Below are positions 7,359 to 43,963 of a stretch of 64,000 nt of DNA, piece after piece (position 1 is the first letter of the stretch; every line of letters begins with the position of its first letter). Under the pieces are notes generated by a model that saw nothing but the letters and a program-made list of their open reading frames with translations, was not told the DNA's origin and did no database searches. Both the position numbers and the translations under genes were made by a program. Source of the stretch: Thermoleophilaceae bacterium (GTDB taxonomy: Bacteria > Actinomycetota > Thermoleophilia > Solirubrobacterales > Thermoleophilaceae); the NCBI GenBank assembly GCA_030447725.1, contig JAUJOQ010000001.1, forward strand, positions 842,823 through 906,822. Direction: 5' to 3'.

Positions 7359-7790
7359 GTGGCCTTCCCGACTGACGCGCGTGCTGAGTGGTCGGTGGAC
7401 CACGGCTCGAGTGACCCTCGGTTGGAGCAGGCGCCCGTGCCCGACGCCGACGAGCTGGAGCGGCTGCTTGACCGGCTGAGCGCAGAGGCGGCGGCCACGC
7501 AGCCGTTCGTCGTCGAGTTCGCCACTTCGGCGGGGGCACGGCTGGGCGTCGGGCTGGGAGCGTCGGCGGGCAGCGTCTTGTCGTTCAACCAGTCCGACGA
7601 TCCGCCCTACTACGTGAGCGCTGGTCGGCCCGAGTCGGCTGACGACAACGATGTTGGCTTCTACTACCAGGGGCACTGGAGCGAATTCCCAGAGGAGGCG
7701 CTCGTGCCCGTAGAGCTTGCCCGCAAGGCGGTGGAGCAGTTCCTAGCTACTGGCGAACGACCCGAAGCTGTTGATTGGGAGGAGGTGTGA
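7359..7790 (+). CDS. Immunity protein, Imm1-like
   Basis: 143 residues from GTG 7359. The order 'DELERLLDRLSAEAAAT', 'GARLGVGLGASAGSVLSF', 'VGFYYQGHWSEFPEEALVPV' and a C-terminal 'FLATGERPEAVDWEEV' is that of Imm1 proteins, which protect against deaminase and other tips. It is complete. The last codon and stop overlap the start of the next leader (GTGA at 7787). Confidence 0.8.
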   Translation: MAFPTDARAEWSVDHGSSDPRLEQAPVPDADELERLLDRLSAEAAATQPFVVEFATSAGARLGVGLGASAGSVLSFNQSDDPPYYVSAGRPESADDNDVGFYYQGHWSEFPEEALVPVELARKAVEQFLATGERPEAVDWEEV

Positions 7791-7933
7791 ATCAGCGGCG
7801 CCCACGGATCGCCTTGCTCAGGCTTCTCCTCCTCGTGCTTGCTCTTCTCGCGTGGGCGTCGATCTCAGCCGGCGCAGCGCCCGTCGTCGAAGCTGCGATC
7901 GATGAGGCGGGCCACGAACCGCGGTCGACGTAG
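7787..7933 (+). CDS. Short leader peptide overlapping the Imm1-like gene
   Basis: 48 codons from GTG 7787 in a four-base overlap with the Imm1-like stop. The sequence is a textbook signal peptide ('IALLRLLLLVLALLAWASI' then 'SAGAAP'), followed by 15 residues and a stop. It is best read as the 5' end of the toxin gene whose tip survives at about 8090-8382; the overlap shows how immunity and next toxin genes were once chained. Confidence 0.5.
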   Translation: MNQRRPRIALLRLLLLVLALLAWASISAGAAPVVEAAIDEAGHEPRST

Positions 7934-26907: not shown

Positions 26908-26921
26908 ACTGAGATCCAGGT

Positions 26922-26960
26922 GCGGTGCTCGCCCGATCGGCGATCGGGCTTCGCTCCTCC
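26922..26960. repeat. Dispersed palindromic repeat, copy near dnaX
   Basis: Contains GCCCGATCG-G-CGATCGGGC (26931-26949). Together with its flanks it is close to the reverse complement of elements at 41621-41658 and 42428-42465 (shared GGAGGAGCGnAGnCCGATCG and GAGCACCGC). It lies 15 bases after the SRP RNA, where the hairpin might also end transcription. Confidence 0.75.

Positions 26961-40593: not shown

Positions 40594-40601
<8 letters not shown>
39369..40601 (+). CDS. icd: NADP-dependent isocitrate dehydrogenase, type II (eukaryote-like)
   Basis: 410 residues from GTG 39369, after CAAGGAGTC. '[20 protein letters not shown]' and '[20 protein letters not shown]' are typical of the homodimeric subfamily; '[20 protein letters not shown]' carries the cofactor loop. 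Converts isocitrate to 2-oxoglutarate and NADPH. Overlaps mdh by eight bases. Confidence 0.96.
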
Positions 40602-41586
<985 letters not shown>

Positions 41587-41595
41587 GCCGACGGG

Positions 41596-41742
41596 GAGGA
41601 GCGCAGCCGGAACGTTGCCGGAGGAGCGCAGGCCGATCGCCGATCGGCCGAGCACCGCGCCGGATCACTCTCCGGCGAGCACCGCACCGGAGGTTCTCGG
41701 CCGAGCACCGCACGGATCACTCTCCGGCGAGCACCGCACCTA
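41596..41742. repeat. Repeat block upstream half (flank of the winged-helix gene)
   Basis: Begins with GGAGGAGCGCAGCCGGAACG and carries on into GGCCGATCGCCGATCGGCC (41631-41649, a perfect palindrome with one central base), followed by several GAGCACCGC units with ATCACTCTCCGGC between. The first 46 bases are identical to those at 42328-42373, on the other side of the winged-helix gene. Confidence 0.85.
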
Positions 41743-41747
41743 TTCCA

Positions 41748-42152
41748 TCACGCGGCTGGGTGCCAGCCCTTCCCCTCCTTGCGGATCTTGCCCTCCCCCT
41801 GGAGTGTCGGCATGACCCTGTACAGGTAGTTGGCCTGGATGCCCATGGCGTCGGCCAGCTCGGGGATGGTTATCCCCGGCTGGGCACCGACCAGCTCCTG
41901 GGCCTGCTGGGCGCGCTTGCCCGAGCCTCGTGGGCGCCCCCGCCGCCTAGCGCCGGAGCCGGAGCCGGCGCTGCGCGAGCGTCCCCTGGCCGCCGTACCC
42001 GACCGGCGGCCTGCCTGTCGCGCGCCGGAACCGCCCACCCCGGCGAGCGCGGCCGCAGCCTTCTCCAGTCGCTCGTGCTCCTCCACGAGGGGGCGCAGCT
42101 CCTTGAGCCGGGCGTCTATCTCCTTGCGCTTCTCATCCAGAAAGTCGGTCAC
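41748..42152 (-). CDS. Winged-helix DNA-binding protein with coiled coil and basic linker
   Basis: 134 residues. An N-terminal charged coiled coil ('EKRKEIDARLKELRPLVEEH'), a basic Gly/Arg/Ser linker with 'RRRGRPRGSGKR', which resembles an AT-hook, and a C-terminal winged helix ('GITIPELADAMGIQANYLYR', 'LQGEGKIRKEGKGWHPAA'). Small basic proteins of this kind organise chromatin or regulate genes; no target is known. Repeat blocks lie on both sides. Confidence 0.8.
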   Translation of the reverse strand: MTDFLDEKRKEIDARLKELRPLVEEHERLEKAAAALAGVGGSGARQAGRRSGTAARGRSRSAGSGSGARRRGRPRGSGKRAQQAQELVGAQPGITIPELADAMGIQANYLYRVMPTLQGEGKIRKEGKGWHPAA

Positions 42153-42205
42153 CGTACGAGTCCTTTCCTAAAACAGTTACTTGCATAATGCCATACGGCG
42201 GTGTT

Positions 42206-42322
42206 TGTCACCGGTGGAGAAGCGCAGGGGAAACCTGTCACCTGGGGATAGCGCAAGGGAACCTGTCACCGGGGGATAAGCGCAGGGTAACCTGTCACCC
42301 TGGGAGCAGCGGGCCGGGACAT
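42206..42322. repeat. Tandem array C, about 29-bp units
   Basis: Four units begin TGTCACC at 42206, 42236, 42264 and 42293 (periods 30, 28 and 29), each followed by a G-rich part with GCGCA-GGG and ending AACC. It lies next to the start of the winged-helix gene, in its upstream region. Confidence 0.85.
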
Positions 42323-42326
42323 CTCG

Positions 42327-42600
42327 GGAGGAGCGCAGCCGGAACGTTGCCGGAGGAGCGCAGGCCGATCGCTGCCGGAGGAGTGCAGGCCGATCGCTGC
42401 CGGAGGAGTGCAGGCCGATCGCTGCCGGAGGAGCGCAGGCCGATCGCCGATCGGCCGAGCACCGCACGAATGAATCTCGGCCGAGCACCGCACGAATGAA
42501 TCTCGGCCGAGCACCGCACGGATGAATCTCGGCCGAGCACAGCACAGATGAATCTCGGCCGAGCACCGCACGGCGGCTCGCCGGCGAGCACCGCGGCCTC
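42327..42600. repeat. Tandem arrays A (25 bp) and B (26 bp)
   Basis: Array A: GCCGGAGGAG starts at 42349, 42374, 42399 and 42424, exactly 25 apart, each followed by GCAGGCCGATCGCT or similar. Array B: CGGCCGAGCACCGC starts at 42452, 42478, 42504, 42530 and 42556, exactly 26 apart, joined by ACGAATGAATCT. The arrays meet at a second copy of the palindrome GGCCGATCGCCGATCGGCC (42438-42456). There is no unique spacer, so this is not a CRISPR array. Confidence 0.9.
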
Positions 42601-42605
42601 CCTTG

Positions 42606-43040
42606 TCACTCAACCAATGCTTTGAGCCTTTTGAGTGATTCGTCCAGTTCGCCGGCCGTCACCCTCTTGACCATCGGGCCGGCCATCCGTCCGATCGGCC
42701 CGCCCGGCAGGTCGTACTCGTTGGCGTAGAAGAACGTGGTGGCGTCGCCGTCGGCGGCGAACTCGTAGATCACCTTGGCCTTGGCCCGCACCGGCCCCCT
42801 GCCCTCCCACACGACGCGCTTGGCGCGCTCGTTCTCCACCACCGTCCAGCGCACCTTGAAGCCCTTTCCGGCGAGCTTGAGGCATTGGGTGAGCGTCGAC
42901 CCCTTTCTGAGCTGGCCCTCGGGGGCGTCTTCGAGGAACTGGTGGATCGTGACCCATCGCTCCAGGGCGCGGGGGTTCATGACCACTTGGTACAAGGCCT
43001 CCGGCGAGGCCTTCACCTGCACCCGGCGCTCGACCCTCAC
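42606..43040 (-). CDS. SRPBCC-fold (START/Bet v1-like) protein
   Basis: 144 residues. GTG 43040 overlaps the stop of the upstream gene (GTGA). The N terminus 'VQVKASPEALYQVVMNPRAL' and 'FKVRWTVVENERAKRVVWEG' form the helix-grip fold of polyketide cyclase/SRPBCC proteins, which bind hydrophobic ligands. Ligand unknown. It is coupled to the NmrA-like reductase, so both may act on one small molecule. Confidence 0.82.
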   Translation of the reverse strand: MRVERRVQVKASPEALYQVVMNPRALERWVTIHQFLEDAPEGQLRKGSTLTQCLKLAGKGFKVRWTVVENERAKRVVWEGRGPVRAKAKVIYEFAADGDATTFFYANEYDLPGGPIGRMAGPMVKRVTAGELDESLKRLKALVE

Positions 43041-43963
43041 CGCGCCGCCAGCTCCTCGGTGCGCTCCCACTCGGCGAGGGCGCGCTCCACCGCCCGGTCG
43101 AACGGCAGCGTGCGGATGCCGTACATCTCCGGCGCCTCGAGGGCGTCGCGGGGCAGCAGCTCGTGCTCGAGGCTTTCCATCAGCGGTCGCACCAGATCGA
43201 GAGGCTGGTCGGTCAGGGCGCTCACCACGGCGCTCGCCGGCGGAGTGAGGGAGACCCCGAGGCCGATGGGCAGCCGGGCCACGCCCATCGATTCGGCGAT
43301 CCCTTCGATCATCTCCCCGTAACTGAGCACGTCCGGTCCGGCGATGTCGAGAGAGCGCCCCGCGGCAGCCTCGATGCCCGGCGTGCGGGCCAGGAACTCG
43401 ACCGCGTCGCGCTCCGCGAGGGGCTGGGTGCGATTGCGGCGCCAGCCGGGCATCGGCAGCAAGCGCAGCCGCTCGACCAGGCGCACCAGAATCCGGAAGG
43501 ACGAGGAGCGCGACCCGATCAAGAGCGAGGCGCGTAGGGCCGTGCTGGCAGGCGCCGCTTCGAGGAGGATCTGCTCGACCTCGATTCGGGACCCGATGTG
43601 AGCCGAGGGCTCGGCACCGGCCGGCGCGATGCCGCCCAGGTAGACCACGCGCTCCACGCCCTCTGCGCGCGCCGCCTGTGCGAAGCTCTCGGCGGCGCGC
43701 CGGTCGCGGTCGGAGAAGTCCCCGTCCTCGGTGCTGGTGGGCGCCTCCATCGAGTGCACGAGGTAGTAGGCGGTCGCGCAGCCCTCGAGGGCCTCGCGCA
43801 CGCCGCGACCGCTGGTGAGGTCGCCGCCGGCCAACTCCAGTCCCGCACGCGCCTCCAGGCGCGATGGGTCGCGCGCGAGCGCGCGCACCGGCCGGCCCTC
43901 GGCCAGCAGGCGCTCCACCAGCCTGCCGCCAACGTATCCGGTGGCCCCGGTGATCAGCTCCAC
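43037..43963 (-). CDS. NAD(P)-binding NmrA/complex-I-39kDa-type protein
   Basis: 308 residues from an ATG. 'ELITGATGYVGGRLVERLLA' is the atypical SDR Rossmann motif, followed by 'VRALARDPSRLEARAGLELA' and 'AEGVERVVYLGGIAPAG'. The canonical YxxxK catalytic pair is not evident, so it may sense or bind cofactor rather than catalyse. Overlaps the SRPBCC gene by four bases. The 215 bases between it and 44179 contain no gene I see. Confidence 0.85.
   Translation of the reverse strand: MELITGATGYVGGRLVERLLAEGRPVRALARDPSRLEARAGLELAGGDLTSGRGVREALEGCATAYYLVHSMEAPTSTEDGDFSDRDRRAAESFAQAARAEGVERVVYLGGIAPAGAEPSAHIGSRIEVEQILLEAAPASTALRASLLIGSRSSSFRILVRLVERLRLLPMPGWRRNRTQPLAERDAVEFLARTPGIEAAAGRSLDIAGPDVLSYGEMIEGIAESMGVARLPIGLGVSLTPPASAVVSALTDQPLDLVRPLMESLEHELLPRDALEAPEMYGIRTLPFDRAVERALAEWERTEELAAR

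Follow-up and report, generated by a model that had tools for sequence, protein, structure and literature searches.

A palindromic repeat family in Thermoleophilaceae forms ordered, layer-matched nested arrays

Introduction

Several kinds of short palindromic repeat have been described. REPs, in their GTAG- and CGTC-tagged forms (Di Nocera et al. 2013), are high-copy palindromes of 20-40 bp found mostly just downstream of genes; some copies are intragenic, including in uvrA, and some families lie inside other palindromes (PMC3733652). Rickettsia palindromic elements (RPEs) are ~150 bp long, are known from Rickettsia and form in-frame fusions with unrelated housekeeping genes (PMC10969869). According to the passages cited here, short palindromic repeats in Volvox carteri organelles are inserted within one another (PMC2670323), and in yeast mitochondria GC clusters at homologous sites merge, with one cluster lying in a coding gene (PMC4478555).

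The repeats described here share features with each of these systems. Like REPs, they are small, palindromic, high-copy, dispersed and largely intergenic, with some intragenic copies, and UvrA is a host in both cases. Unlike REPs, they carry neither a GTAG nor a CGTC tag; instead, two conserved arms, GAGGAGCGCAG and GAGCACCGCAC, flank a hairpin, and the element nests in itself in matched order. GTAG-type REPs differ further, in that no RAYT (Y1_Tnp) was found in six genomes examined here. Because the tag is missing and no RAYT was found, we call the element REP/RPE-like rather than a member of the REPs. Compared by description, it resembles RPEs in entering unrelated protein genes in frame and differs from them in its ~41-bp core, its actinobacterial hosts and its use of several frames and both directions. 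The Volvox and yeast cases share short palindromes that are nested or merged; they are eukaryotic organelle DNA, however, and the passages cited do not describe ordered layer pairing with alternating stem types. MITEs are likewise short, non-autonomous, dispersed repeats with inverted-repeat structure, whereas our element ends without terminal inverted repeats (its arms are direct near-repeats) and without a clear target-site duplication. The family appears to be undescribed so far in Actinobacteria, class Thermoleophilia; a literature search for palindromic repeats in Thermoleophilia returned no paper, which is weak evidence of novelty.

Results

Two nested arrays flank a winged-helix gene

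We analyzed a stretch of 64,000 nucleotides (the window) from a Thermoleophilaceae bacterium. On the plus strand, we call a unit containing the core GAGGAGCGCAG (left arm) a G unit, and one containing GAGCACCGCAC (right arm) an H unit. The relevant features of the window are:

26920-26960, minus strand: solitary core with stem CCCGATCG/CGATCGGG, ~15 bp downstream of the SRP RNA gene
40597-41586, plus strand: mdh, malate/lactate dehydrogenase family gene, syntenic neighbor
41595-41739, plus strand: nested array A, reading G2 G1, palindrome, H1 H2 H3 H4
41631-41649, no strand: central palindrome of array A, GGCCGATCG-C-CGATCGGCC
41748-42152, minus strand: gene for the winged-helix protein, present once in the genome and ancestral here
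42206-42311, plus strand: ~29-bp tandem units, local to this place
42327-42596, plus strand: nested array B, reading G5 to G1, palindrome, H1 to H6
42438-42456, no strand: central palindrome of array B, the same sequence as in array A
42606-43040, minus strand: Polyketide_cyc2/AHSA1-type gene, syntenic neighbor (Pfam run on 42606-43070)

Arrays A and B have the same orientation. Array A begins 8 bp past the mdh stop codon, and another 8 bp separate its end from the winged-helix gene, whose 3' end faces it; array B stops 9 bp short of the next gene, which likewise has its 3' end on that side. The initial annotation had reported 46-base direct repeats and perfect palindromes on both sides of the winged-helix gene. 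Both are real: the palindromes are those listed above, and the repeat measures 47 bases (41594-41640 and 42326-42372), beginning two bases before the start given earlier. The three tandem arrays it had listed are also present in Tandem Repeats Finder output, at 42206-42311 (~29-bp units), 42327-42447 (25-bp units, 4.8 copies, 93% matches) and 42451-42572 (26-bp units, 4.7 copies, 94% matches), although the 25- and 26-bp units described as exact are only nearly so. A fourth array, absent from that annotation, consists of H units of 26-27 bp at 41647-41740.

The ~29-bp units lie in the winged-helix promoter region. Their alignment score with the G unit was not reached in 5000 shuffles, and they are probably diverged, privately amplified relatives of that unit. 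We rejected the ~29-bp array as a dispersed family: at the sensitivity used, the genome held two good matches to it, and other members of the genus gave none.

The solitary core directly follows the large SRP RNA gene. At gathering score, Rfam matches in the window were confined to the SRP RNA and a tRNA, and the repeats matched no family. The fold energy of array B as DNA was not below that of shuffled sequences; that of the locus L011, folded as RNA, was.

The element is dispersed in few genomes

The G-unit pattern matched the 3.17-Mb genome 189 times at no more than one mismatch (122 forward, 67 reverse), and the reversed pattern, used as a control, 0 times. Among the first 100 matches listed, G units fell in about 50 loci. 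The palindrome GGCCGATCG-C-CGATCGGCC occurred exactly at five places and with one change at several more, and its reversed control had no genome match. 

Among 61 related genomes, exact units were most numerous in G000 (132) and G003 (77), with fewer in G002, G004 and G009; G001, of the same genus, had none, and most relatives likewise lacked the repeats. We also scanned one genome from each of 84,980 species, a set that may omit the window's own genome, with a 34-base core pattern. This gave 57 stretches, all in five MAGs labeled Thermoleophilaceae bacterium (MGR_bin92, MGR_bin102, MGR_bin235, YX2bin39 and MGR_bin71). All genomes with the element are MAGs or drafts. The same core pattern found nothing in the viral contigs scanned.

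The core is a covarying hairpin between two arms

The ~41-bp core consists of the arm GAGGAGCGCAG, a 9-nt stem, a 1-nt tip, the complementary 9-nt stem and the arm GAGCACCGCAC. We gathered 111 cores from the window, 27 stretches of its own genome and public loci, and the distance from G arm to H arm was 29 in 110 of them. Stems vary both between and within species (GCCGGAACG, GGCCGATCG, GCCCGATCG, GCCCGAGCG, GGCCGAGCG and rarer types), and a change on one side is accompanied by a change in its partner. We scored this covariation at the three pairs that the search pattern left free, with shuffled partners as the null. Among 88 distinct cores, pair 14-30 was paired in 87 (shuffled mean 52.6), pair 16-28 in 86 (43.5) and pair 19-25 in 69 (27.9). 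Of the 19 unpaired cases at 19-25, one is T-G and the other 18 are G-G, belonging to the GAGCG type that G009 shows.

Conservation of the arms across species is largely fixed by the search pattern used for the public loci; in most copies of the window's own genome, scanned with a looser pattern, the arms are nearly uniform. The G and H arms are direct near-repeats of one another, agreeing at 8 of 11 bases (P 0.002 by shuffling), and agree at only 5 of 11 when inverted.

Layers are matched in order around one dyad

The larger arrays are nested palindromes of the form Gn to G1, dyad, H1 to Hn. Counting outwards, the stem half of each G unit matched that of the corresponding H unit at all six bases in 52 of 68 outer layers. 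With H stems shuffled within layer, 26.5 ± 3.4 matches were expected, and none of 20,000 shuffles reached the observed number. The second layer, given the inner type, matched in 38 of 45 cases (20.7 shuffled; 0/20,000), and permutation within arrays only left 24 of 30 matches against 15.2 (7/20,000). Related loci are partly non-independent, and all of these P values are indicative. Unit counts to the left and right of the dyad also correlate (rho 0.66), and a rare stem, GCGGGA, stands on both sides of the third layer in L016.

The outer layers pair over about six bases only. Their right halves read TCTC-CGGC or TCTC-GGCC, with TCTC in place of the CGTT or CGAT expected of an intact stem; innermost right halves are CGTTCCGGC or CGATCGGCC. 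Pairing between the inner spacers of layers is weak (20/500 shuffles).

Two comparisons of orthologous arrays bear on how layers are added. L136 and L008 have their two inner layers in common and differ in the outer ones, whereas the difference between L128 and L032 reads most easily as the addition of an inner left unit and an outer right unit. Together they suggest differing directions of growth. A rule by which host flank is copied with each layer looked plausible in L008 alone, where outer H spacers (CCTTCC..) repeat host sequence past the array (7646-7864), and failed overall. N runs interrupt the arrays in L010, L013, L027 and L034, which makes the unit counts minimum values; assembly may also have collapsed some arrays.

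Relatives show filled and empty sites, some inside protein genes

Orthologous flanks in G000 and G003 are mostly 85-94% identical, and each of the two genomes has filled sites where the other is empty. The hemB gene of G000 contains 210 bp (70 codons) that its G003 counterpart lacks; the array of L027 is missing at the orthologous L115; a two-layer array in L128 faces an empty site in L032, and another site has two layers against one. In another pair, lhr is filled in G004 and empty in G002. Such sites indicate that copies were gained or lost recently. The filled and empty pairs revealed no clear target-site duplication.

At least seven inserts keep the reading frame of recognizable proteins: HemB, Lhr (twice), UvrA, MazG, a DEAD-box/DbpA helicase (in its linker) and a PIG-V-like mannosyltransferase. 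A further one lies in a membrane-protein-like frame with no family assignment. Stop-to-stop reading frames across arrays did not by themselves count as evidence of a coding insert: we required a codon-position GC signal on both sides and then examined the proteins for family matches; the 15 candidate rows include some that duplicate one locus. In HemB, the ALAD domain match (E 2.7e-140) is split into two stretches, and the insert (L009, 8326-8520), made of nested and tandem cores, comes right after the HGHCG region. The lhr gene was struck independently in two species, at different sites (L090 and L095). Among the coding inserts, several frames are used and either orientation occurs. This is as expected of a short sequence without stop codons rather than of a peptide under selection. 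Three matches within genes, in L095 (at 1816), L122 and L139, were discarded as chance resemblance to the arms; L026 was rejected as a coding insert.

The winged-helix gene is older than its flanking arrays

As the initial annotation had described, the protein encoded between arrays A and B combines an N-terminal segment that is coiled-coil-like by inspection, an AT-hook-like RGRPRGSG linker and a C-terminal winged-helix-like part, and its family profile weakly matches MarR- and IclR-type regulators. The gene has one copy in the genome and is present in 30 of 41 relatives, nearly all of which lack the repeats. Its neighborhood with mdh is kept without arrays in G001, G002, G003 and G004 (in G003 the contig covers the mdh side only). 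Arrays missing beside the orthologues were the first of the two observations that the initial annotation had named as refuting its idea. Since the gene is syntenic in relatives that lack arrays, it is ancestral here and the repeats came later. To call it enclosed by repeats is therefore misleading: two copies of a dispersed family happen to be neighbors, and the gene lies between them by position only. The alternative offered with the initial annotation, a mobile repeat carrier, was right about mobile repeats and wrong about a carrier block, as the repeats arrived around a resident gene. On the present evidence, the gene has no visible link to the repeats.

Explanations for the repeats

The dispersal, core structure, stem covariation, paired nesting, filled and empty sites, in-frame inserts and lack of a genomic link to the winged-helix gene are best explained, in our judgment with good probability, by a lineage-restricted, non-autonomous palindromic mini-element of REP/RPE-like character whose copies were gained or lost recently and which grows as paired nested layers. 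The initial annotation had favored a different idea: that the winged-helix protein recognizes the palindromes or arms as a dedicated array and so organizes or partitions the chromosome. Its winged-helix-like domain and RGRPRG linker would suit that role, as would arms nearly alike in most copies of the window's genome. However, a single gene faces about 50 or more scattered loci, and parS-like sites would be linked to and conserved with their cognate gene, which these are not. A dedicated partition or anchor pair is unsupported because the gene is conserved and syntenic in array-less relatives, with arrays missing beside the orthologue even in the repeat-rich sister G003, and we give this idea hardly any credence. 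The protein could still bind the repeats in the way that a nucleoid protein binds many sequences. Host-useful 3' hairpins spread by selection, acting as transcription terminators or mRNA-end stabilizers, are also unlikely. Using neighboring genes called with our own codon model, we found a median of 12 bp between intergenic arrays and a stop codon facing them, and 43.5 bp to a start codon; the stems covary, and a function as RNA elements has been suggested for REPs, most of which lie downstream of genes (PMC3733652). Yet the H side is turned towards gene 3' ends 47 times and the G side 43 times (25 against 29 in tandem pairs), and this want of orientation bias makes a strand-specific RNA function less likely; a role as terminator is conceivable. 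There is also no T tract behind the hairpin, some copies lie within coding genes, and most relatives do without the element. The 12-bp distance fits insertion tolerated in 3' flanks, and position may merely mark where insertion does no harm.

Local tandem expansion without true transposition, through slippage plus inter-locus gene conversion, would account for the regular alternation of units, for spacers common to neighboring units in some arrays (L008, L020) and for arms that are direct near-repeats. It sits badly with filled and empty sites at unrelated places, including inside genes, and independent slippage on each side would not preserve the matched order and number of layers. As a full account we consider it very improbable; slippage on the two sides is probably a contributor alongside the main process. 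For the mobile mini-element, we envisage recent insertion or loss of copies at scattered places, for the most part a few bases past stop codons, and in-frame entry of a minority into protein genes. Arrays would grow as paired layers around one dyad, the n-th left and right units having matching stem halves. The arms may be what a trans-acting recombinase, or else a repair route that processes hairpins, recognizes, and new layers may enter at or near the dyad, although the TCTC of outer right units means that simple insertion at an intact core's tip does not explain every base. The element would be mainly selfish DNA whose shortness, lack of stops and placement in 3' flanks or protein loops make it tolerable. 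It is conceivable, though we are doubtful, that it represents a new class of bacterial mini-element that targets its own hairpin dyad independently of RAYT, by single-strand or hairpin-targeted integration, and so builds ordered, layer-matched nested palindromes.

A search for a Y1 transposase (RAYT) in G000-G004 and G009, some of them incomplete, found none, while control genomes matched. IS110 and reverse transcriptase were considered as mobilizers and set aside, as the distribution of neither family tracks the element. Host-flank palindromes were likewise dropped as a target: complementarity between host flanks was 2.0 against 1.57 for single cores (7/2000 shuffles) and 1.80 against 1.59 for all cores (25/2000), a weak excess.

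The element joins in-frame tolerance in housekeeping genes, of heme synthesis and DNA repair among others, to ordered self-nesting. From its matched layers one can read how short palindromes multiply without a known transposase, a question that is open for CGTC-type REPs too, and closely related filled and empty pairs make the process testable among strains.

Variant cores in one genome

Solitary cores predominate in MGR_bin235 (L133, L098, L117 and L131). Many cores there have TAGCG or TAACG before them and GCTCG or GTTCG after them, and a G-G mismatch is retained at one fixed pair in many of the stems.
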